From a virus: 38,628 nt of DNA. A program made the translations under genes and the position numbers. The stretch lies in IMG/VR virus record IMGVR_UViG_3300049729_000081, positions 1-38,628 of that record; one strand, 5' to 3'. How positions within the stretch are numbered: the first letter of the stretch is position 1; every line of letters starts with the position of its first letter. Positions 28,075 to 37,921 of this stretch are shown piece by piece. The notes under the pieces were generated by a model. It saw only the letters and a list, made by a program, of their open reading frames with translations. It was not told where the DNA came from and ran no database searches.

Positions 28075-28311
28075 TTACTTCCTGCCGGTTTTTGCCTTGT
28101 CAACCCGATGCAGCACGGGCTTAATCCTAATGATCTCGGAAGACAAGATGATGTTATCGCAAGCCGCTTGGATGGCGTCAGCCACCCCAACACTCGGACG
28201 TTGCCGACCCGCGAAAATCCTATACAGGTATTGGGTTGCGATGGCCGCACGTTGCGCGACATCCTCACCCGTCATCCCTGCGTCCTGGAGCCGTGCAGTG
28301 TATCTGTTCAT
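28075..28311 (-). CDS. Cro/CI-like helix-turn-helix regulator
   Basis: A 78-residue protein from the ATG at 28311. Residues 3-55 (YTARLQDAGMTGEDVAQRAAIATQYLYRIFAGRQRPSV) follow the XRE/lambda repressor helix-turn-helix pattern, with the recognition helix around TQYLYRIFAG. The end is basic. A GTG at 28365 would add 18 residues but has no ribosome site; an AGGAGG lies oddly far (16 bases) upstream of the ATG. It is divergent from the rightward early genes, so it likely represses one or both control-region promoters. Whether it acts as a prophage repressor or as a Cro-like switch in a lytic phage cannot be told. Confidence 0.7.
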   Translation of the reverse strand: MNRYTARLQDAGMTGEDVAQRAAIATQYLYRIFAGRQRPSVGVADAIQAACDNIILSSEIIRIKPVLHRVDKAKTGRK

Positions 28312-28477
28312 AGCCCCAAAGTAATACCTCCTGGGTAGTGTGGCAAGGACTTCTTTTGCAGACACTTGAGATAAAATATCAACATGACATACTGTATTTA
28401 CGATTGGTCCATGAATACCTTAGGGCATATTGTGATAGCTTGTAAAATAAAGGCAAGTTGATCTTTACATCGTCTGC
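28312..28477. promoter_or_regulatory. Divergent control region
   Basis: AT-rich gap between the HTH regulator (minus) and the rightward genes. A TAAAAT (28443-28448) with a weak TTAGGG 17 bases upstream is a candidate rightward -10 box. TGTAAA (28441-28446) and TTTACA (28464-28469) form a short inverted repeat that could be an operator half-site pair. No convincing leftward -35 box is seen. Assignments are tentative. Confidence 0.4.
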
Positions 28478-28675
28478 ATGACACGTTCTCTGCCCAAAAA
28501 AAGTTCAGATATTTTTCAAAAAGGCTTGACCGGGGATACCAGGGAGGTATTATTAACCAAGCAAGCTAACCACCACTCCCCGATCCTTGAAAACCTGCCA
28601 GCGATCTTAGGTCCAGCGCGGGAATACCTTAACGATGATGGAGACCCATCCGCCCTCTCATGGACGGATGCATAA
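28478..28675 (+). CDS. Possible small early protein
   Basis: A 65-residue frame (MTRSLPKKSSDIFQKGLTGD...) with a basic N-terminus and acidic C-terminus. It fills the space between the candidate rightward promoter and the pentapeptide-repeat gene and ends 21 bases before that start. There is no good ribosome site, and base composition is more AT-rich than neighbouring genes, so it may be an untranslated leader. Confidence 0.35.
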   Translation: MTRSLPKKSSDIFQKGLTGDTREVLLTKQANHHSPILENLPAILGPAREYLNDDGDPSALSWTDA

Positions 28676-28696
28676 CCACCACCCAAGGAGATAGCA

Positions 28697-29407
28697 ATGA
28701 TGAAGTGCTATACGCCCGAAGAACTGGCGGAAGTACTCCGCCTCCATGCCCTCTGGAAGAACGATGCCGAAGGCGGAAGCCGGGCCGACCTGCGCCGGGC
28801 CGACCTGAGCGGGGCCAACCTGATCGGGGCCGACCTGCGCGACGCCAACCTGATCGGGGCCGACCTGCGCGGGGCCGACCTGAGCGGGGCCGAACTGCGC
28901 GACGCCAACCTGATCGGGGCCGACCTGAGCGGGGCCGAACTGCGCGACGCCAACCTGATCGGGGCCGACCTGCGCCGGGCCGACCTGAGCGGGGCCAACC
29001 TGAGCGGGGCCGAACTGCGCGACGCCAACCTGATCGGGGCCGACCTGCGCCGGGCCGACCTGAGCGGGGCCAACCTGAGCGGGGCCAACCTGAGCTGGGC
29101 CGAACTGCGCGACGCCAACCTGATCGGGGCCAACCTGTGCGGCGCCAACGGAATCAACATCATCCAGGTGGGTCCCATCGGATCCCGCCGCGCCACCACC
29201 ACCTATTGGATCGACGAGGACCGCGTGGCGTGCGGCTGCTGGCGCGACTACCAGGGTGGATCCCTGGAGGATTTTGCGGTCCGCGTCCACCAGGAGCATG
29301 CAAACAACCCCCGCTTCCTTGCCGAATACAACGCAGCCATCGCGCAGTTCCGCGTGGCTCGAGAGTACGCGGCCGCACTCAAACCCAGCAAGCAAGAAGA
29401 GGTGTGA
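28697..29407 (+). CDS. Pentapeptide-repeat protein
   Basis: A 236-residue protein. Residues about 29-150 are some 24 pentapeptide repeats of the A(D/N)LxG type ([20 protein letters not shown]), forming a right-handed square beta-helix; residues 1-28 are a helical cap and 150-236 a mixed domain ([30 protein letters not shown]). Some pentapeptide proteins mimic DNA and inhibit gyrase; most have no known role. A strong AAGGAG site precedes the ATG. It is the first clear gene of the rightward early operon, which fits a host-takeover role, but this is inference. Confidence 0.85.
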
Positions 29408-29746: not shown

Positions 29747-29965
29747 ATGACACCGATTCAGGAAGCAGCCGAATCGCTCGCAGAACGTCTCATGATCTGG
29801 CACCGACTCGCCCAGCAATGCTACGAACGCGGCGAAGAAGGCGAATGGATCGATCTTCGGGACATGTGGAACCCGGCAGATCAGGGAGCCATCGACAAAT
29901 TCATGGAGGCCAAGGCCAGAGCACAGGGCCTCCGTCCGCTATTTCATGGAGGGAAACGATCATGA
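29747..29965 (+). CDS. Small acidic helical protein
   Basis: A 72-residue protein (MTPIQEAAESLAERLMIWHRLAQ...), helical, with a basic end. It overlaps the ERF gene as ATGA, indicating coupled expression with the recombination genes. Function unknown. Confidence 0.65.
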   Translation: MTPIQEAAESLAERLMIWHRLAQQCYERGEEGEWIDLRDMWNPADQGAIDKFMEAKARAQGLRPLFHGGKRS

Positions 29966-30750
29966 ACGAATTGCCATTTGAGGAGGGAGCAAACGCTCTT
30001 GACCTCACGCCGCAGACGGTACACCCGATGCCGATTGCCGCGCCCCAGCAGGCCCCGACGCCCATGATGCTGCTCCAAATGGCCATGAGCCAGAACGCGG
30101 ACTTGGACAAGCTCGCCAAACTCATGGACCTTCAGGACCGGTGGGAAGCCAACGAAGCGCGGAAGGCATTCAACGCCGCCTTCGCCGGATTCAAGGCTGA
30201 GGCGATCCAGATCGTCAAAAACATAAGCGTCACGGATGGACCGCTCAAGGGCAAGAAATATGCGGATCTCTATGCCGTGGTTGACGCCGTGACCCCCGCC
30301 TTGTCGAAGCATGGCCTCCACCATTCGTGGAAGTTGACCAAGGACGAGAAAGACTGGCTGGAGGTAACCTGCTACATCAAGCACAACCTCGGCCACTGCG
30401 AAACGGCGAGCATGGGCGGACCCCCGGACGCGGGGGGGGCCAAAAGTGCGATTCAGGCGCGGGCCAGCTCCAAGAGCTACCTGGAGCGATACACCCTGCT
30501 CGGCATCACGGGGCTGGCGTCATGTGATGGGGACAGCGACGGACGAGCTGATGCCGGGAAGGCCTTTGGCATGGCCGAGGATGCCTTCCAGGGACACCTA
30601 AAGGCCATGCGCGAGGCCAAAGACACGGCTGGGCTCCAAGCGGTGTTCACCGCCGCATGGAAGGCCGCCGGCAACGACAAACCCACCAAGGACGCGCTGC
30701 TCAAGGTCAAGGAAGAGTGCAAAGCCAAGACGATGGGAGGCGGGAAATGA
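29962..30750 (+). CDS. erf: ERF-family single-strand annealing protein
   Basis: A 262-residue protein. ERF core (about 65-190): WEANEARKAFNAAFAGFKAEA, KYADLYAVVDAVTPALSKHGL, KSAIQARASSKSYLERYTLLGITGL. ERF proteins form rings on single-stranded DNA and anneal complementary strands; P22 Erf is the type member, which suits the P22-like head genes. The C-terminal part is helical. The ATG overlaps the upstream stop (ATGA) behind GGAGGG. It works with the exonuclease encoded immediately downstream. Confidence 0.88.
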   Translation: MNELPFEEGANALDLTPQTVHPMPIAAPQQAPTPMMLLQMAMSQNADLDKLAKLMDLQDRWEANEARKAFNAAFAGFKAEAIQIVKNISVTDGPLKGKKYADLYAVVDAVTPALSKHGLHHSWKLTKDEKDWLEVTCYIKHNLGHCETASMGGPPDAGGAKSAIQARASSKSYLERYTLLGITGLASCDGDSDGRADAGKAFGMAEDAFQGHLKAMREAKDTAGLQAVFTAAWKAAGNDKPTKDALLKVKEECKAKTMGGGK

Positions 30751-31451
30751 TCGGCATCATCACGTGCGAGCAGGGCAGCGCCGAATGGAAGGCGTGCCGG
30801 GCCGGCCGCATCACCGGGAGTCGCATGGCGGCGGTCCTGGACCGCACCAAGAAGGGCGAGGATGGGTCCAAGCGCCGAGACCTAAAGGCCACCATTCTGG
30901 CCGAGACTCTGACCGGAGAACCGGAGCCCGAGGGCTTCGTCAGCTACGAGATGCGCTGGGGGACAGAAACGGAGCCACTGGCCCGGGCCGAATACGAGGT
31001 CCGCACCGGGCACATGGTAGACCAGGTGGGATTCATCCTTCACCCCATCTATCTTCGGTTTGGCGTGTCGCCCGATGGAATCGTCAACCCGACCGCAACG
31101 GCTGAAGGGATCAACAGCATTGAGGGCATGGTGGAGATCAAGTGCCCAAAGACGGCAACCCATCTTGGCTACATGCTGGCCGGCGTGGTTCCCGAGGCCT
31201 ACGAGCCACAGATGATGTGGGAGATGGCCAACACGGACGCCCAATGGTGCGACTTCGTGAGCTACGATCCGCGACTGCCGGAACACCTCCAGTTTTTCAC
31301 GAAGCGCCTCATGCGCGACAGCACACGGATCTCCGAACTGGAGCGTGAGGCCATGACGTTCCTGGCAGAGGTTGACGCCCTGCGAGAGAAACTCCCGACC
31401 GCGCCGATCCCCGCCGATCTGGCCGATGCCTACGCTAGGAACCCGGCATGA
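30747..31451 (+). CDS. YqaJ / lambda-type exonuclease
   Basis: A 234-residue protein. Motifs: QGSAEWKACRAGRITGS (9-25), RWGTETEPLARAEYE, FGVSPDGI (metal-binding Asp), and VEIKCP (the E-x-K of the PD-(D/E)XK fold). It would digest one strand of duplex ends and hand the 3' strand to the ERF protein, a Red-like pair for recombination and concatemer formation. The start overlaps the erf stop as ATGA. Confidence 0.88.
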   Translation: MIGIITCEQGSAEWKACRAGRITGSRMAAVLDRTKKGEDGSKRRDLKATILAETLTGEPEPEGFVSYEMRWGTETEPLARAEYEVRTGHMVDQVGFILHPIYLRFGVSPDGIVNPTATAEGINSIEGMVEIKCPKTATHLGYMLAGVVPEAYEPQMMWEMANTDAQWCDFVSYDPRLPEHLQFFTKRLMRDSTRISELEREAMTFLAEVDALREKLPTAPIPADLADAYARNPA

Positions 31452-31696
31452 CGCGCCCCCGGATCACTCCCACCGGAAGGCACACCTGGGCCGTGTTCGA
31501 CGGCCGGCCAGAATTCCCCCACGCCCAGAGATGCACACGCTGCGATGGCGAGGGCGGTTGGGATGCCATCCCTTGGGGGGCGCAGAGCAAAGATGCGACC
31601 TACCACTGGACGGAATGCCCGGTGTGCCAGGGAAAGCGCGAGTTCCCCAGCCAGATGGCCCGGTGCGTCGGTCGCCACGTTCTGGCGCCGGCATGA
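31448..31696 (+). CDS. Small zinc-finger protein
   Basis: An 82-residue protein with CTRCDGEGGW and CPVCQGKREF: paired CxxCxG motifs like one repeat of a DnaJ zinc finger. The N-terminus is basic (MTRPRITPTGRHTW). Coupled to both neighbours by ATGA overlaps. Likely a DNA- or protein-binding accessory to the recombination genes; unproven. Confidence 0.65.
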   Translation: MTRPRITPTGRHTWAVFDGRPEFPHAQRCTRCDGEGGWDAIPWGAQSKDATYHWTECPVCQGKREFPSQMARCVGRHVLAPA

Positions 31697-32025
31697 GGCA
31701 CAAGCCCACTCCCGATGAGATCCAACACATGGGCCGCGTCAAATCGCTCCCATGCATCGTATGCGAGATGCGCGGGGAGGTGCAGACGAGCGTGACAGAC
31801 TGCCATCACATTCACCGCGACCCCGGAACAGGGCAACCCATTGGCGGAAGCCAGCGGGCCAGCCATTACGCCACGTTGCCTCTGTGCCAAAAAAATCATC
31901 ATTGGAATTCCGCGAACGTTCACATGGGTTCCCGAGAATTCGAGTCCCGCTATGGTAACGAACTGGATTTGCTGCGGCTCACATACGAGCGGCTAGGGGT
32001 CCCTTACCCATGGAGCAGACCATGA
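31693..32025 (+). CDS. Ref-like HNH-family nuclease
   Basis: A 110-residue protein. HMGRVKSLPCIVCEMRG near the N-terminus, then DCHHIHRDPGTG and YATLPLCQKNHHWN follow the phage P1 Ref / RecA-dependent nuclease pattern (CxxC...HHI...LCxxxHH), an HNH-type metal site. Ref cuts within RecA-formed D-loops. Placed right after the annealing and exonuclease genes, so a recombination role is likely. The 5' ATG overlaps the upstream stop. Confidence 0.78.
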   Translation: MRHKPTPDEIQHMGRVKSLPCIVCEMRGEVQTSVTDCHHIHRDPGTGQPIGGSQRASHYATLPLCQKNHHWNSANVHMGSREFESRYGNELDLLRLTYERLGVPYPWSRP

Positions 32026-32285: not shown

Positions 32286-32436
32286 ATTCCGATGATTATG
32301 CAAGATCGGAACCACAAAGCCCAGCGCCCGCGCGGTCCGCGACCAAAGCCTGAGCGCACCAACGGTAATGAATTATTTAACATGCAACATCTGTCCACTC
32401 GCCGGAACCCCGGCCACGCCCTGGAGAAAGGAACCC

Positions 32437-32745
32437 ATGAACGACTCCGAAGACCTGACCCTTTACCGAGAACTCGGGACTCCCGAGCAACTGGCTCGCG
32501 CCACGGATGCCGTAGATGAGGCTCGGCAACTCCGCGCCCGGGTCGCGGAACTGGAAACCCAGCTACAGAAAACCCGTAACTCCTGGGCCGTCCAGCAGGA
32601 TCTCTTGCAGGACGCCTGCAATGCCCATGCTCAGGCGGCCCACGACCGGGACCACTGCCGGGCGGTGCTGGTGCAGATCAAGGATGCCGTGTTGGAAGAT
32701 TCCACCATCGGCATCGTCAACCTCATCAACGAAACCATCAAGTAG
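32437..32745 (+). CDS. Coiled-coil small protein
   Basis: A 102-residue protein (MNDSEDLTLYRELG...). A central coiled coil (VDEARQLRARVAELETQLQKTRNSW) covers about residues 25-50 and the remainder is helical. I use the ATG at 32437, with AAAGGA upstream and the TGTCCA repeat 40 bases before; an in-frame ATG at 32368 would add a segment with CNIC but lacks a ribosome site. Function unknown. Confidence 0.65.
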   Translation: MNDSEDLTLYRELGTPEQLARATDAVDEARQLRARVAELETQLQKTRNSWAVQQDLLQDACNAHAQAAHDRDHCRAVLVQIKDAVLEDSTIGIVNLINETIK

Positions 32746-32785
32746 CACCTGTCCAAATCCGTGAACCAACCAACCACGAGGAACG

Positions 32786-33872
32786 ATGAATGAGCTGGCT
32801 CTTTTCGCAGGCGCTGGTGGAGGCATTCTCGGAGGCAAGCTCCTTGGATGGCGAACCGTGTGCGCCGTTGAGCGTGATGCCTACGCTGCACAAGTTCTGG
32901 CGCAACGACAAAACGATGGAATTCTCGAAGCTTTCCCAATTTGGTCTGACGTGTGCAGTTTTGACGGAAGACCATGGCGAGGAATTGTTGACATCATTTC
33001 TGGCGGTTTCCCTTGCCAGGACATCAGCGCAGCCGGCCGAGGGGAGGGGATCGACGGGGCCAAGTCTGGACTCTGGTCTGAATTTGCACGGATCATTGGC
33101 GAGGTTCGACCTCGATTCGTCTTCGTGGAAAACTCCTCAATGCTCACTCATCGAGGGCTGGGACGAGTTCTCGGAGACCTGGCCCGCCTGGGGTTCGATG
33201 CGGAATGGTGTGTCCTGGGGGCGGACGATGCCGGAGCTCCCCACATCCGAAAGCGGATCTGGATCTTGGCCCACTCCAACGGTGAACGGGAACTACAACC
33301 GGAAGGGTCTTTCCTCGCAGTCGGGGGACGGGCTGGCAACGGCAGTGGCAAACTTCCCGACTCCGACGGCCACGAACACCAAGGCCAACCACATGAGGAG
33401 TGCGGGCCGACCGTCCCGGTCCTACTTCCCGTCCCCGATGGCTTCGGACTGCGAGGCCCGGGGTGGGCACCGCGGGAACCTCGACACCCTGACCAGCTTC
33501 ACCAAGGCGTTCCCGACGCCCTGCGCCCGAGACTTCCGCAGCCCAAACCTGAAGCCCTACTCCGAGCGGGGGGGGCAAGAAAGGGGAACAACTCGTGAAC
33601 TTCATCGCGCACTTTCCAACACCCCGAGCCGGATCCAGCAACGGTGGCGGAACCGGCTTAGACGGTGGCTCGAATGCCAGGCGAGCTCTGGCCAGGGACC
33701 ATGGGGAGGTCGAAGCGAAAGCCCTTCTTGGTGGGCAACTGAACCCGCCCTGGGTCGAGTGGCTCATGGGGTGGCCCATCGGGTGGACCGACTTAAAGCA
33801 ATCGGGAACGGACAGGTTCCAGCAGTGGTCCGACTCGCATTCCAAACCCTCTACCGCCGCCTAATCGGCTGA
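32786..33872 (+). CDS. DNA cytosine-5 methyltransferase, interrupted at a G(8) tract
   Basis: The frame from 32786 has C5-methyltransferase motif I (LFAGAGGGILGG, 6-17), motif IV with catalytic Cys77 in SGGFPCQDIS, motif VI as VENSS (114-118) and motif VIII RIWILAH. It then stops at 33598, 23 bases after eight Gs (33568-33575), without motifs IX-X. The other end, GRVAHGVAHRVDRLKAIGNG then QVPAVV (motif X), lies in the +1 frame up to 33872. With seven Gs the two parts join into one roughly 361-residue enzyme. So the gene is either off by slippage (phase variation), a base-call error, or recently broken. It would protect phage DNA from host restriction. Confidence 0.8.
32790..33872 (+). CDS. 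Overlapping reading frame with FPTP repeats (dual coding with the methyltransferase)
   Basis: A 360-codon frame starting four bases inside the methyltransferase start and open through the whole gene. It has five (W/F/Y)P(T/S)P motifs about 20-40 residues apart (SWPTPTVNGN, NFPTPTATN, YFPSPMASD, AFPTPCARD, and HFPTPRAG in the continuation). With seven instead of eight Gs it would end in GGQLNPPWVEWLMGWPIGW then TDLK (33724-33798), a C-terminus I recognise from phage methyltransferase-associated proteins. The same one-base change therefore repairs both frames. It may be a real overlapping gene or a shadow conserved because of the enzyme; I lean to real for the 3' half. Confidence 0.5.
   Translation: MSWLFSQALVEAFSEASSLDGEPCAPLSVMPTLHKFWRNDKTMEFSKLSQFGLTCAVLTEDHGEELLTSFLAVSLARTSAQPAEGRGSTGPSLDSGLNLHGSLARFDLDSSSWKTPQCSLIEGWDEFSETWPAWGSMRNGVSWGRTMPELPTSESGSGSWPTPTVNGNYNRKGLSSQSGDGLATAVANFPTPTATNTKANHMRSAGRPSRSYFPSPMASDCEARGGHRGNLDTLTSFTKAFPTPCARDFRSPNLKPYSERGGQERGTTRELHRALSNTPSRIQQRWRNRLRRWLECQASSGQGPWGGRSESPSWWATEPALGRVAHGVAHRVDRLKAIGNGQVPAVVRLAFQTLYRRLIG
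33568..33575 (+). repeat. Poly-G(8) slippage tract
   Basis: Eight consecutive Gs inside the methyltransferase gene. Homopolymer G tracts of this length are typical contingency loci in bacterial and phage methyltransferases. Length seven restores the methyltransferase frame and that of the overlapping frame. Confidence 0.8.
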
Positions 33873-33895
33873 TGTCCAAATGGAGGAACCCAGTC

Positions 33896-34084
33896 ATGGG
33901 AATCCAGTATTTCGTAATGCTCGACAACCAGGACGGGAAACTCATCCAGCCCCTTTTGGACGAGGACGGGATGGATGTAGCCCTGTTCGACACCGAGCAC
34001 GATGCCCGCGAAGCCGCCCAGGCGAATGCCGTGGGGTCGCACTTCGGCTACGAGATCTTCGAGCGCGGCAACGGCAACCTGTAA
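33896..34084 (+). CDS. Small protein of unknown function
   Basis: A 62-residue acidic protein (MGIQYFVMLDNQDGKLIQP...). TGGAGGAACCC precedes the ATG. An in-frame ATG at 33872, inside the TGTCCA repeat and overlapping the previous stop (TGATG), would add eight residues. Predicted alpha-beta, with no motif recognised. Confidence 0.6.
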   Translation: MGIQYFVMLDNQDGKLIQPLLDEDGMDVALFDTEHDAREAAQANAVGSHFGYEIFERGNGNL

Positions 34085-34133
34085 CCGAATGTCCATCTGC
34101 CAGACCCTTCCGGCCCACCTTCAAGGAGCGCCT

Positions 34134-34556
34134 ATGCGCCTGTTCCTCGACACCGAGTTCAACGAATTCAAGGGGCCGCTGATCTCCATGGCACTGTTCC
34201 CCGAATCCGGCCTTCCCTTCTACGAGTCCCTGGGATGCGAGAACCCCGGCCCCTGGGTTGCCGAGCATGTCATGCCGATCATTAACAGGGAGCCCGTCAC
34301 CCTGGCCAACTTCCAGGCCTACCTCCAGCACTTCCTGGCCCAGTGGGACGAAGTGACCATCGTGGCTGACTGGCACGAAGACATTATCCATTTCTGCGAG
34401 GCGCTGACTACCGGCCCTGGCCAGCGGATCAACACCCCCACACTCAACTTCCAGATCCGGCGCGACCTCGACACCGTGCCTTCCGCCATCCCCCACAACG
34501 CACTGGCAGACGCCAAGGCCATGCTCCAGAGCGCCTTCGCCAACGTCAGCCGTTGA
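34134..34556 (+). CDS. DEDD-type 3'-5' exonuclease-like protein
   Basis: A 140-residue protein beginning MRLFLDTEFNEF (the D-x-E of Exo I). VTIVADWHEDIIHF (about 78-91) supplies the second Asp, and PHNALADAKAM near the C-terminus fits the H...D of motif Exo III. Together they match the DnaQ/RNase T superfamily, here in a very short form. It could trim DNA or RNA ends. AAGGAG precedes the ATG and a TGTCCA repeat lies upstream. Confidence 0.72.
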   Translation: MRLFLDTEFNEFKGPLISMALFPESGLPFYESLGCENPGPWVAEHVMPIINREPVTLANFQAYLQHFLAQWDEVTIVADWHEDIIHFCEALTTGPGQRINTPTLNFQIRRDLDTVPSAIPHNALADAKAMLQSAFANVSR

Positions 34557-34594
34557 TCTTGTCCAGGCGCAACCCGCGCCAGAAGGGAGCCCCC

Positions 34595-34780
34595 GTGGCA
34601 AACGTTCAAGCCGAATGGGTGATCGAACTGAACTGCGAGTGCCCGTCCTGCAAAAAGGATGTGGACCTGACGGTGACGGACGATTTCTGGGACGGGCTCC
34701 AACCCGCCGAGGATCGGAAGGACATGGAAGCCGTCTGTCCCGAGTGCGGGCATGAATTCATCGTCGATTGCGTCTACTGA
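34595..34780 (+). CDS. Zinc-ribbon mini-protein
   Basis: A 61-residue protein from a GTG start with AAGGGAGCCCCC upstream. Two CxxC pairs, CECPSCKKD and AVCPECGHEF, flank an acidic loop, giving a standard zinc ribbon. No family name assigned. It lies among other tiny genes that carry TGTCCA leaders. Confidence 0.6.
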   Translation: MANVQAEWVIELNCECPSCKKDVDLTVTDDFWDGLQPAEDRKDMEAVCPECGHEFIVDCVY

Positions 34781-34818
34781 AGCACCTGTCCAGGCGCAGC
34801 CCTGGAGGAAGGAACCAC

Positions 34819-35025
34819 ATGGATAGCCAAACGTTCGTAGACACGGTGGTCTACTGCGCATCTCTCATTGTGCGGGTCCACGACCAGCCGATCCTTGCCT
34901 CCACCCTGCTGAATGAATCTGGGGTGCTGGACCAGCCAGAGGAAATGCGCCGGTCGGCTGAATACGACCTTGCCCCTCTCCGTGCCGCCAGGCTCATCCC
35001 CGCCAGCATCATCGGGCGCGAGTAG
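34819..35025 (+). CDS. Small helical protein of unknown function
   Basis: A 68-residue protein (MDSQTFVDTVVYCASLIVRVHDQ...), helical and acidic, with AGGAAGG upstream of the ATG and a CACCTGTCCA repeat before it. Not recognised. Confidence 0.55.
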   Translation: MDSQTFVDTVVYCASLIVRVHDQPILASTLLNESGVLDQPEEMRRSAEYDLAPLRAARLIPASIIGRE

Positions 35026-35049
35026 CGCCTGTCCATTCCGAGGAACCCC

Positions 35050-35421
35050 ATGGAAATCTACTACCGCATGGCAGACCGACTCATGTATGAGGGCGGAGAG
35101 ATCAAGATCGAACTGGAGAAATTCCAGGTGGTCAAGCGCACCCCCAAGGGCGCATGGATCATCCCTCATGCGGAACCCGGCTGGTGGCAGTCTCCCAACC
35201 CCAAGAAGCGGTTCGTCCTGGACGGGGACGGGCGGCGGTATGCCTACCCCACGGTGGACGCCGCTCACAAGTCCTATCTGCGCCGGAAGGTGGTCCAGAT
35301 CAGTCGGCTGGAGGACCAGATGCTGGTCGCCAATGTGGCCCTGAAAGTCGCATCGGCCCCTGATTTCGAGCCCAACAAAACCTACGTGGACGATTCTCTC
35401 CGCAAGTTCACCAGCTACTGA
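35050..35421 (+). CDS. Basic small protein of unknown function
   Basis: A 123-residue protein, MEIYYRMADRLMYEGGEIKI..., with a beta-rich first half containing WIIPHAEPGWWQSPNPKKRF (about 36-55) and then a Lys/Arg helix (AAHKSYLRRKVVQIS). GAGGAACCCC precedes the ATG. The first half looks like a fold displaying a conserved Trp pair. Function unknown. Confidence 0.6.
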   Translation: MEIYYRMADRLMYEGGEIKIELEKFQVVKRTPKGAWIIPHAEPGWWQSPNPKKRFVLDGDGRRYAYPTVDAAHKSYLRRKVVQISRLEDQMLVANVALKVASAPDFEPNKTYVDDSLRKFTSY

Positions 35422-35444
35422 AACGCACCTGTCCAGGAGGCCCC

Positions 35445-35582
35445 ATGGCCCGCAATGAGAAGTGGTGGCGGATCTACCGCCGAACGCGCCGGGATACCCC
35501 CGCCGAGCGCCGCCGGGTTGCGTGGTGCTGGCGGCATATTTACAGATCTGACGCCTGGTTCGATTTCATCCACCCCGATTAA
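35445..35582 (+). CDS. Arg/Trp-rich mini-protein
   Basis: A 45-residue protein, MARNEKWWRIYRRTRRDTPA followed by ERRRVAWCWRHIY. It is very basic and aromatic. GGAGG lies 6 bases before the ATG, and the TGTCCA repeat directly abuts that ribosome site. It could bind nucleic acid or membranes. Not recognised. Confidence 0.55.
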   Translation: MARNEKWWRIYRRTRRDTPAERRRVAWCWRHIYRSDAWFDFIHPD

Positions 35583-35609
35583 TGAATATCCAAAAGGGAG
35601 AACCCCGCT

Positions 35610-35882
35610 ATGGACCTGATCCTGCACCTGAAGGGCGAGTTTTTCGACCAGATTAAGGCCGGAACGAAAACCGTTGAATACCGGCTCGTCAAGCCTTACT
35701 GGCACAACCGTCTGATCGGACGATTCTACGACCGGATCATCCTGGCACGGGCCTACCCCAAACTCGACGACCCAGACCTGACGCTCATCCGGCCATGGCG
35801 TGGCGCCGGCCGCGCAAGAATCACCCATCCCCATTTCGGGCCCAACCCGGTCGATGTCTACGCGATCCCGGTCCACCCGTAA
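35610..35882 (+). CDS. ASCH-domain protein
   Basis: A 90-residue protein: MDLILHLKGEFFDQIKAGTK, TVEYRLVKPYWHNRL, then RIILARAYP and RPWRGAGRARITHPHFG. The hydrophobic strand, KxGxKTxEYR motif and length fit the ASCH (ASC-1 homology) superfamily, related to PUA domains and thought to bind RNA. It is the last rightward gene and faces the tailspike gene head-on. Confidence 0.78.
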   Translation: MDLILHLKGEFFDQIKAGTKTVEYRLVKPYWHNRLIGRFYDRIILARAYPKLDDPDLTLIRPWRGAGRARITHPHFGPNPVDVYAIPVHP

Positions 35883-35971
35883 CCGAATGTCCAGTCGGTC
35901 TTGGACGGCGGCGGCGTGGAGTTCTGCGGGGGTGGGAATCACGATAGGTTGTTCCTTGCGGTCCTTGCGCA

Positions 35972-37921
35972 TCAGTTCTTCGTGTAGCCGAATATCTTGC
36001 CCTCGATCTCCACCACGAAATCAACGGACGACGCAGTGGTACTAGTGTAATTGTACTGGATGAGCAGGTTGGTACCGGACGCTACGAAGGTGATGACGCT
36101 GGTTGCGACCGTTCGAAGTTCATTCCCAGACGCCAGGACTAAAGTCCCTCCATTGTTGGCCACCACGCACTCCCGAGTGTGGGCGAACGCAACATTTCCA
36201 GGCTCTGTCCCGTTTGCTGTGATCTTCACCCGGCCACCCTGGTAAGCAGCAATTGGAACGGTCATGACCGTTGTCGCTACGTTGTTGCAACTCTTGGATG
36301 TGTGCAGGAGCATGTGTTCGCCTAGCTCGTGGGTGATCGTCAGGGATCCGGCGATAATCCGCTTGAATTGAAGGTAGCCGTCCTGGGCGCCCCCGGTGAC
36401 GTTATTGACCATGAGTCCGATCTGGGCGTAAAAGGCGTTCGCGTCTTCCCAAGTGACCACGGGGTTCATGAGGCTACCTGCAGCGGGGGCGAGATCTCGG
36501 TAGACGTGGCCACCTCCATAGAGGGAAAGGGCACCTTCGTAACCGCTGACTCGCTGGCTCGCAGACCCGGCAAACCCAGTCCAGGTGCAGGTTCCGATTC
36601 CCCGGACCGTGCAGGCATTCCCGATCGTGATCCCAAATACCGTGGTGCTGGAATTTTCGATGTCACAGTGCAGCATCAGGACGTCTGAATTCTGGTCGAT
36701 ATTGAACCCGCGCCCAGTGTATCCAGTCCCCGCGGGTTGCCATCCTTCGGCTGTGGCGTTGATGAGGCACACTTGGCTGTTATAAATCTCATATTGACAA
36801 CCTCGGAATGTATTGATGACGGTGGTTGTCACCTGGTCCGAGGGGCCCGTCCCAGCTAGGCGCACAGTCCCATCCGGGCATTCGCACCGCTCGAAATAAA
36901 TATGTTGCGAACCCCAACTATTACCGGGGTCAGTGTCGATTAGAATTCCATATCCTTTGAGCGGAGTAATCCCTGAAATCCGCACATTCCGAAGAGTTGA
37001 CAGCCAGCAACCCTCCAGATAGATACCGATAACAGCAGCTCCGGTAGTCCCTGCTCCGTTGATGGAAATGTTTTCGATGGTCAGGTTTAAAATATCCTGG
37101 CCGAAGATCGCTGTGCCAGTTCCGGAGTAGGTAAGCACAACGCCTTGATTTTGCGTGGATACATAGGGCTGGGATTCTCCCAGTAGTTCCATGAACTGAT
37201 AAACCGTAAGCCCCGTGGTCCCCAGGTTGTAGACTCCTTGAGGAAAGCATACCCGACCGCCCCCTCTGGCATGCACGGCGTTAATCGCAGCCTGGATGGA
37301 TGCAGCATCGTTAGTGGTGCCATTTCCCGTGGCGCCGAAATCCTTGACGCTAATTGAGTCTAGATTTTTTGAATGTTGGGTTCTCCCAACACTACCTGCC
37401 ATATTGCTATTATTACCGATAAGTGAACTACCGTCGCTACCAGCAGTAATAGAAGAAAATGACTGTAGCGCGACTCCTACTGTATTTGTTGGATAGCTCT
37501 GCCCAAATGAATATCCAACAAGCCCGGCACCAGGTAGGGATGCAAGGGATGTTCCGCTGACGGTATTGATCCGCAGGTTGTCAACCGGGTAATCCGGCTG
37601 CTGGACGCCGAGCGCGTCGGTCAGATTGACCTTGTAGGCGTTGTTGGAGAACCAAACCTGGGCCTTCCCGTATTGGTCAAGGATTACCGGGTTCGGGTTT
37701 GGGTAAAGCAGAGTCGCATCCGTGAACGTCGCCAGCGGGACATTCGTGCCGGCGTAATAGGTATAGAGCATCCCCCCAGCCAAAGGCTGCCCGTTGTTGT
37801 CGAATTCCACATAGAGTGGATTCGTCATCAGGGTGGCGGACGGAGCTGCCGCGAACGAGGCCGTAGCCAAGTAGAGCGCCGCAACCAGCAGCGCCCCAAA
37901 TCGGATCATTTTTTTAAGCAT
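35972..37921 (-). CDS. Tailspike with N-terminal signal-like segment and pectate-lyase-type beta-helix
   Basis: A 649-residue protein. Residues 1-26 (MLKKMIRFGALLVAALYLAT then ASFAAA) look like a cleavable signal peptide. Residues 33-115 (NPLYVEFDNNGQPLAGGMLYTY..., VILDQYGKAQVWF) form a P22-tailspike-like head-binding domain. A beta-helix begins at KDFGATGNGTTNDAASIQAA (about 193-212) with the usual GRVCFPQGVYNLG coil and runs to about 500. The C-terminal 130 residues are a beta-rich trimer end. It would bind or cut host surface polysaccharide. GGAAAGG supports the first ATG at 37921. It is coupled to the 62-residue membrane protein (stop and start overlap). Confidence 0.82.
   Translation of the reverse strand: MLKKMIRFGALLVAALYLATASFAAAPSATLMTNPLYVEFDNNGQPLAGGMLYTYYAGTNVPLATFTDATLLYPNPNPVILDQYGKAQVWFSNNAYKVNLTDALGVQQPDYPVDNLRINTVSGTSLASLPGAGLVGYSFGQSYPTNTVGVALQSFSSITAGSDGSSLIGNNSNMAGSVGRTQHSKNLDSISVKDFGATGNGTTNDAASIQAAINAVHARGGGRVCFPQGVYNLGTTGLTVYQFMELLGESQPYVSTQNQGVVLTYSGTGTAIFGQDILNLTIENISINGAGTTGAAVIGIYLEGCWLSTLRNVRISGITPLKGYGILIDTDPGNSWGSQHIYFERCECPDGTVRLAGTGPSDQVTTTVINTFRGCQYEIYNSQVCLINATAEGWQPAGTGYTGRGFNIDQNSDVLMLHCDIENSSTTVFGITIGNACTVRGIGTCTWTGFAGSASQRVSGYEGALSLYGGGHVYRDLAPAAGSLMNPVVTWEDANAFYAQIGLMVNNVTGGAQDGYLQFKRIIAGSLTITHELGEHMLLHTSKSCNNVATTVMTVPIAAYQGGRVKITANGTEPGNVAFAHTRECVVANNGGTLVLASGNELRTVATSVITFVASGTNLLIQYNYTSTTASSVDFVVEIEGKIFGYTKN

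Follow-up and report, generated by a model that had tools for sequence, protein, structure and literature searches.

The hexamer TGTCCA behind stop codons as a candidate seam between single-gene cassettes in seven phages

What joins one short gene to the next in a compact phage gene block, and why should the same six bases lie at nearly every joint? The question is raised by IMG/VR record IMGVR_UViG_3300049729_000081, whose entire 38.6 kb (here called the window) belongs to a P22-like podovirus with portal, scaffold and large terminase matching P22-type or related PHROGs. A rightward gene block at 28.7-35.9 kb carries recombination genes in its first half and ten short open reading frames (ORFs) in its second, where TGTCCA recurs from space to space. 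As judged from comparison of seven phages, this hexamer marks a mosaic junction at which genes are swapped between phages. We think it rather probable that the second half is an array of single-gene cassettes exchanged at a six-base seam, probably by ordinary phage or host recombination under selection. Gene calls are our own; a first gene caller gave wrong frames in this GC-rich DNA and was replaced.

On the + strand TGTCCA begins at 32392, 32750, 33873, 34090, 34560, 34787, 35030, 35430 and 35888, and TATCCA at 35587. A preliminary description of this DNA, made from its letters alone, had counted these nine copies and one variant between 32.3 and 35.9 kb, and the count is confirmed, with all copies intergenic and on the coding strand. 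The 510 intergenic bases of the array hold nine TGTCCA on the + strand and none on the - strand against an expectation of 0.136 per strand (Poisson P 4e-14), and its 3,176 coding bases hold none, whereas the window as a whole is near chance (25 found vs 20.6 expected). TGTCCA is also the hexamer present in most array spaces (9/10; runner-up 5), and over all retrieved loci an unbiased scan of every hexamer that follows an ORF stop places it first, in array phages only. The array spaces thus hold TGTCCA far above expectation, which removes the worry that its copies might be at chance frequency. The block at 28.7-32.3 kb was said to lack the repeat, and its + (coding) strand indeed has no copy, the - strand a single one. 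Most copies lie between genes and behind a stop as proposed, except at the two edges: the first (32392), opening the array ~106 bp past the last upstream gene, has no neighbouring gene's stop before it, and the last (35888) has no same-strand gene downstream. Elements and cassettes, all on the + strand, are as follows.

32392..32436, +: opening element, TGTCCA and type-1 linker CTCGCCGGAACCCCGGC...GGAGAAAGGAACCC, preceding the 32437 gene
32437..32745, +: cassette gene, 102 aa, coiled-coil-like
32750..32785, +: TGTCCA and linker AATCCGTGAACC..; linker type also in G014 and G005, truncated in G017
32786..33864, +: cytosine-5 DNA methyltransferase, split into overlapping ORFs 32786-33598 and 33595-33864
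33873..33895, +: TGTCCA and short linker AATGGAGGAACCCAGTC
33896..34084, +: cassette gene, 62 aa
34090..34133, +: TGTCCA and linker TCTGCCAGACCC...AAGGAGCGCCT; G016 has a related linker ahead of its homologue of the next gene
34134..34556, +: cassette gene, 140 aa, RNase H-like/exonuclease family (phrog_2259); cassette also in G016, with other neighbours
34560..34594, +: TGTCCA and hairpin linker GGCGC-AACCC-GCGCC
34595..34780, +: cassette gene, 61 aa, zinc-ribbon-like (below curated cut-offs)
34787..34818, +: TGTCCA and hairpin linker (TCCAGG..CCTGGA)
34819..35025, +: cassette gene, 68 aa
35030..35049, +: TGTCCA and short linker TTCCGAGGAACCCC
35050..35421, +: cassette gene, 123 aa (phrog_13631); homologues in the G017 (82% DNA) and G014 arrays, with other neighbours
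35430..35444, +: TGTCCA and shortest linker, GGAGGCCCC
35445..35582, +: cassette gene, 45 aa
35587..35609, +: variant element TATCCA and linker AAAGGGAGAACCCCGCT
35610..35882, +: cassette gene, 90 aa, ASCH-like (phrog_625)
35888..35893, +: closing TGTCCA behind the last stop; no gene downstream on this strand

Arrays of this kind occur in the window and in six other IMG/VR phages (G005, G008, G014, G015, G016 and G017), seven in total. Two of these are portal relatives of the window: G005 (69%), with ten hexamers on a single strand behind stop codons, and G008 (48%), also with ten. The other four were found by a scan with a single longer version of the element, TGTCCACTCGCCGGAAC..CCGGC, which is common to the window, G005 and G008; such a scan would miss arrays that have no type-1 linker. 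Because each of the four was found by one element, the remaining elements of its array are independent evidence. G005 and G008 share the window's P22-like virion genes, portal family included; G014 to G017 do not and have no relative of the window portal, and blastp finds no gene that all seven share. The array region itself has its nearest relative in G003, which is 94% identical in its last kilobase and whose contig stops one base past the first hexamer, that base differing. No array is present in the DNA examined of the P22-like relatives G012 and G013 or in contigs L058-L060. Over viral contigs, the pattern TGTCCA-N-GGAGGAACCCATG gave one real match (G005) and otherwise chance matches, and the matches to CACCTGTCCAGGAGGM were likewise chance, G005 excepted; a hairpin-linker pattern worked instead. 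In GTDB genomes this last pattern matched 14 times, never in an array, and there was no portal relative there, so no host was found; annotated phages and plasmids gave no match to the linkers.

Where along a junction does the likeness between two phages begin and end? Element pairs that are alike downstream (+10..+21; 43 pairs) match fully across the hexamer, and just upstream of it their identity is about background. Pairs alike upstream (-22 to -11; 12 pairs) keep their likeness up to the hexamer, after which it drops toward background. Across 59 elements, likeness of the left flanks does not correlate with likeness of the right flanks (Mantel r -0.014, p 0.64), whereas adjoining 12-base windows on the same side do correlate (r 0.17 and 0.13, p 0.0005). 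The same independence is seen in the 45 pairs with right-flank identity of at least 90%, for which left identity is 0.343, compared with 0.348 over all pairs. Whole cassettes behave similarly. G005 carries a duplicated cassette, 90% identical over 231 bp, in which the likeness runs from TGTCCA to within TGTCCATCCTCGG and the neighbours on both sides are unrelated; the 34134 cassette of the window sits between other genes in G016, with homology extending from hexamer to stop. With similarity stepping at the hexamer, flanks in linkage equilibrium and a duplicated cassette bounded by it, there is strong support for the earlier suggestion of a seam for the gain and shuffling of cassettes. It had also been asked whether relatives with the same genes lack the repeats, and in part they do: relatives of single genes outside the array phages have no hexamer, as the homologues of the 34134 gene and of the ASCH-like gene in array-less phages, with none at either end, illustrate. 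The hexamer therefore belongs to the array rather than to the genes.

The anatomy of the junction ties the hexamer to the gene that ends rather than to the gene that begins. Across the seven phages the stop-to-hexamer distance is 0-10 nt (mean 3.5, standard deviation 2.3; 39 junctions with a called ORF, a count that by construction leaves out junctions of more than 20 nt), and the hexamer-to-start distance is 5-43 nt (mean 23, standard deviation 10). Since the first is tight and the second loose, the hexamer is stop-associated, and the label start-associated, which recalls cluster K mycobacteriophages, is not supported. The start-associated sequence (SAS) of those phages, the closest repeat so far described, is a 13-bp repeat, GGGATAGGAGCCC, that includes AGGAG, overlaps the Shine-Dalgarno sequence and lies 3-7 bp before the start codon; it is short and asymmetric, in one orientation, and its 11-19 intergenic copies are confined to the non-structural half of the genome, ahead of genes from various families (PMC3203893). 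The array hexamer is likewise single-oriented, intergenic, confined to the non-structural region and followed by different gene families, but it has six bases, keeps close to the stop before it, lies outside the ribosome site, is common to unrelated phages and is located at a mosaic junction. That the sequence differs from SAS had been stated correctly: with up to 3 mismatches, GGGATAGGAGCCC has 15 sites where 18 are expected by chance, and the position differs too. About half of SAS copies have ESAS-type 17-bp imperfect inverted repeats upstream; here the left flanks consist of gene ends and have no inverted repeat in common.

The linkers downstream of the hexamer are limited in kind, and all of them end in a ribosome site: CTCGCCGG..CCGGC; GGCGC/GGATCGCCCTGGAGG; AATCCGTGAACC; TCCTCGGAAGGAGG; TTCCTTCACCCCTTC; AAAGGAGGAAACC; and GGAGCxTGACC. 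A similar ribosome site, as first described, is partly borne out: AGGAAC is present in 5/10 spaces and near-copies of GAGGAACCCC-ATG occur, but the literal GAGGAACCCC-ATG is found once (with the 35030 copy) and there are several distinct linker types. The type-1 linker (TGTCCACTCGCCGGAAC..CCGGC) precedes non-homologous genes in all seven phages, and homologous genes can have different linkers (G005_29669/G014_53379; G008_12588/G017_35157). A minority of junctions have TATCCA, TTTCCA, TTCCCA or TGTTCA in place of the hexamer. That six bases stay almost unchanged next to linkers that vary so much suggests either that some factor recognises the hexamer or that exchange continually renews it.

In the mechanism that we favour, a cassette would comprise a linker with its ribosome site, a short ORF, a stop codon, 0-10 nt and TGTCCA, and cassettes would be joined head to tail at TGTCCA in an early or accessory operon, behind recombination genes. 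As the most conserved part of the junction, TGTCCA would be the exchange point both between and within phages. We infer that exchange could proceed through phage ERF, RecT, YqaJ, Ref and NinB and/or host recombination, on the hexamer plus any linker homology, and that selection would then retain those products that keep the end of one gene and the start of the next, with its ribosome site intact. Rad52-like phage recombinases, including ERF, recombine sequences that have diverged; the mosaic borders they produce retain traces of homology, and orf (NinB) contributes (PMC3945230). Three candidate genes lie just upstream of the window array:

29962-30750, +: ERF single-strand annealing protein
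30747-31451, +: YqaJ/lambda-exo-type exonuclease
31693-32025, +: Ref-like RecA-dependent nuclease

A NinB match in the window has a borderline Pfam score. Most of the arrays have recombination genes next to them, and the others have such genes or candidates in the same genome. G005 has RecT and a Ref-like gene, G014 ERF and YqaJ, and G016 a Ref-like gene; NinB lies directly before the G008 array and has relatives in the window, G014, G016 and G017 (the last two by blastp only). G017 encodes a DUF3799 nuclease and two tyrosine recombinases, one of them Xer-like and right before the array.

Two known systems of reshuffled small genes invite comparison. The boundary sequences and nin region of lambdoid phages resemble the array in having small accessory genes behind recombination genes, with exchange at boundaries by Rad52-like recombinases and orf/NinB (PMC3945230). 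Features of this type of mosaicism are all present here, namely ERF, YqaJ, a Ref-like gene and borderline NinB in the window, and a boundary at the hexamer. We know of no fixed 6-bp word behind each stop in the lambdoid nin region, and the lambda nin genes mostly overlap as ATGA. The PeSLs (promoter early stem-loop cassettes) of T4-like phages, the closest shuffling elements so far described, are conserved intergenic elements that reportedly mediate shuffling of small early genes (Arbiol 2010, Comeau 2014, as cited in PMC4503421). Like them, the array element stands before non-homologous genes at shuffled positions; unlike a PeSL, which combines an early promoter with a terminator stem-loop, it consists of a hexamer and variable linkers with no general stem-loop. 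No + strand sigma-70-like promoter was found at the elements, under a sigma-70 model that leaves room for a phage-specific promoter type, and terminators are at chance. Literature searches, covering open papers, returned no description of a TGTCCA element.

Several observations weigh against exchange by ordinary recombination at a six-base seam. Taken alone, 6 bp fall far below what known homologous or annealing recombination needs, so either the linkers help or another process acts. G015 offers as candidates only PD-(D/E)XK/SNF2 genes downstream (a DUF2800 nuclease and an SNF2 helicase), and the ERF and YqaJ genes of G008 do not adjoin its array. Linkage equilibrium is expected wherever reshuffled genes meet; it places exchange between stop and linker and does not prove a crossover within the six bases. 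Finally, two junctions in G017 (34056 and 34442) have shared genes but no hexamer.

Six bases alone are too short for such recombination and vary less than the linkers, which makes it plausible that something reads the hexamer, at the RNA level or as a joining enzyme. The first version, to which we give some tentative credit, is that UGUCCA is an RNA-level signal that helps termination and re-initiation or is a cleavage site between cistrons, the seam being a by-product of selecting functional junctions. In its favour are the tight spacing to the stop rather than the start, a six-letter word that stays the same while the linkers vary greatly, the restriction of hexamers to the coding strand, the ribosome site at the end of every linker and the lack of a promoter on the + strand within the array. 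Yet the upstream recombination block, in the same operon, manages without the hexamer, as do the homologues of two array genes in other phages. RNA structure is not in general excess (any difference goes the other way, with junctions less structured than the coding DNA of the array), hairpins form in some linker types only, and Rfam has no match in the window and nothing relevant in pieces of two relatives. Nor does an RNA signal predict a hexamer-bounded duplication or a last hexamer with no gene downstream.

The second version is that TGTCCA is the recognition word of a dedicated, undescribed cassette-joining activity that would cut or join at or beside the hexamer, integron-like yet having no attC sites; on the sequence evidence we rate this as rather unlikely. 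If true, unrelated phages of one host group would draw on a common pool of single-gene cassettes. A more specific form, in which a phage- or host-encoded site-specific recombinase or nicking enzyme reads TGTCCA or its surroundings and the array is a minimal integron, appears quite unlikely to us. Integron arrays are made of promoterless same-strand cassettes, each with a recombination site just behind the stop codon, and the window array resembles them in its promoterless same-strand genes and in the place of its candidate site. The orientation, the post-stop position, one site per cassette, the opening and closing sites, the sharing of cassettes by phages of different lineages and the Xer-like enzyme directly preceding the G017 array all fit. 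However, an integron site is folded and 57-141 bp long whereas this one has 6 bp, and the array has neither the attC core pair nor an integron integrase. Among the window proteins examined, a subset of its ORFs, neither an integron integrase (IntI) nor any tyrosine recombinase was recognised, and the G017 enzyme falls far under the integron-integrase cut-off (87 vs 265). For the attC cores RYYYAAC/GTTRRRY, no GTTRRRY was found at a distance of 80 bp or less from a window hexamer. The seven phages have no recombinase in common, and the flanks are too variable for classical arm sites.

Could the hexamers instead stop transcription by binding a repressor, as do the stoperators of cluster A mycobacteriophages? 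The control region of the operon bears on this:

28075-28365, minus: helix-turn-helix repressor-like gene
28526-28553, +: best sigma-70-like promoter ahead of the operon, TTGACC-16-TATTAT (consensus match only)

Positions 28366-28696 form a divergent control region between the repressor-like gene and the rightward operon, and contain the best sigma-70-like promoter of the region. Stoperators too are short asymmetric intergenic sites in one orientation, and a repressor-like gene is at hand. They are, however, 13-mer repressor sites spread genome-wide, whereas the hexamer is confined to the array, missing from 28366-28696 and elsewhere not beyond chance; it is identical in phages of different lineages amid non-conserved flanks, and the L5-type 13-mer GGTGGMTGTCAAG is at chance in the window. 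We regard this explanation as highly improbable. A by-product of ribosome-site bias or chance has practically no likelihood: linkers are G/A-rich and partly alike, but TGTCCA lies outside the ribosome site, 5-43 nt from the start codon, and the Poisson value of 4e-14 and the top rank in the unbiased scan, in seven phages, refute it. A promoter at each gene was likewise ruled out, the gap between hexamer and ATG being only 9 nt at 35430 and none being found on the + strand.

How tailed phages reshuffle accessory genes without breaking them, whether by boundary homology or by random joining and selection, has long been debated and was stated to be open (PMC3945230). Here the boundary is resolved to six bases, repeated about ten times per genome across different virion lineages, with recombination genes in the same genome, and the array is a directly testable case for single-gene reshuffling. 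The hexamer can also serve as a marker for accessory, possibly counter-defence, genes in uncultured phages and as a way of grouping phages with a shared gene pool.

Additional features were observed at or near the junctions. The stretch CGCACCAACGGTAATGAATTATTT at 32346-32378, before the first hexamer, recurs before the first hexamer of G016, an otherwise different phage (85% over 33 bp), and is a possible common entry region of the array. At G014 52917, G015 30342 and 31526, G017 35157 and G005 32939 (oriented coordinates), different genes have identical last codons before the hexamer (...CCAGGCCACGGCCTGA, a PTQATA-like C terminus), with an inverted repeat covering the stop codon; thus the left module of the seam can extend into coding sequence. 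G016 (L114:2855-2990) and G008 (L085, record about 37600-37700, minus) share a cassette with no ORF, composed of a hexamer, GGATG...CATCC ends, a T-run and then a second hexamer (degenerate in G016). It is possibly a small RNA or terminator, with neither an Rfam match nor a significant fold.

The split methyltransferase of the window consists of one ORF of 270 aa and one of 89 aa, the latter starting with GTG at 33595, and the two correspond to the N-terminal and C-terminal halves of known phage enzymes: 32786-33598 matches PF00145 (7.7e-31) and 33595-33864 the C-terminal half of phrog_1008. The arrangement may be a natural split, a frameshift or a mosaic joint. The operon opens with a pentapeptide-repeat protein gene with a 15-bp DNA repeat (28697-29407) and no hexamer, and the pentapeptide genes of G014 and G015 lie within arrays, behind type-1 linkers. 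In the G005 array (L051:4295-4618, minus, and the following 40 bp), a gene for a Gly/Tyr/Asp-repeat protein is followed by a strong terminator-like hairpin directly before TGTCCA.

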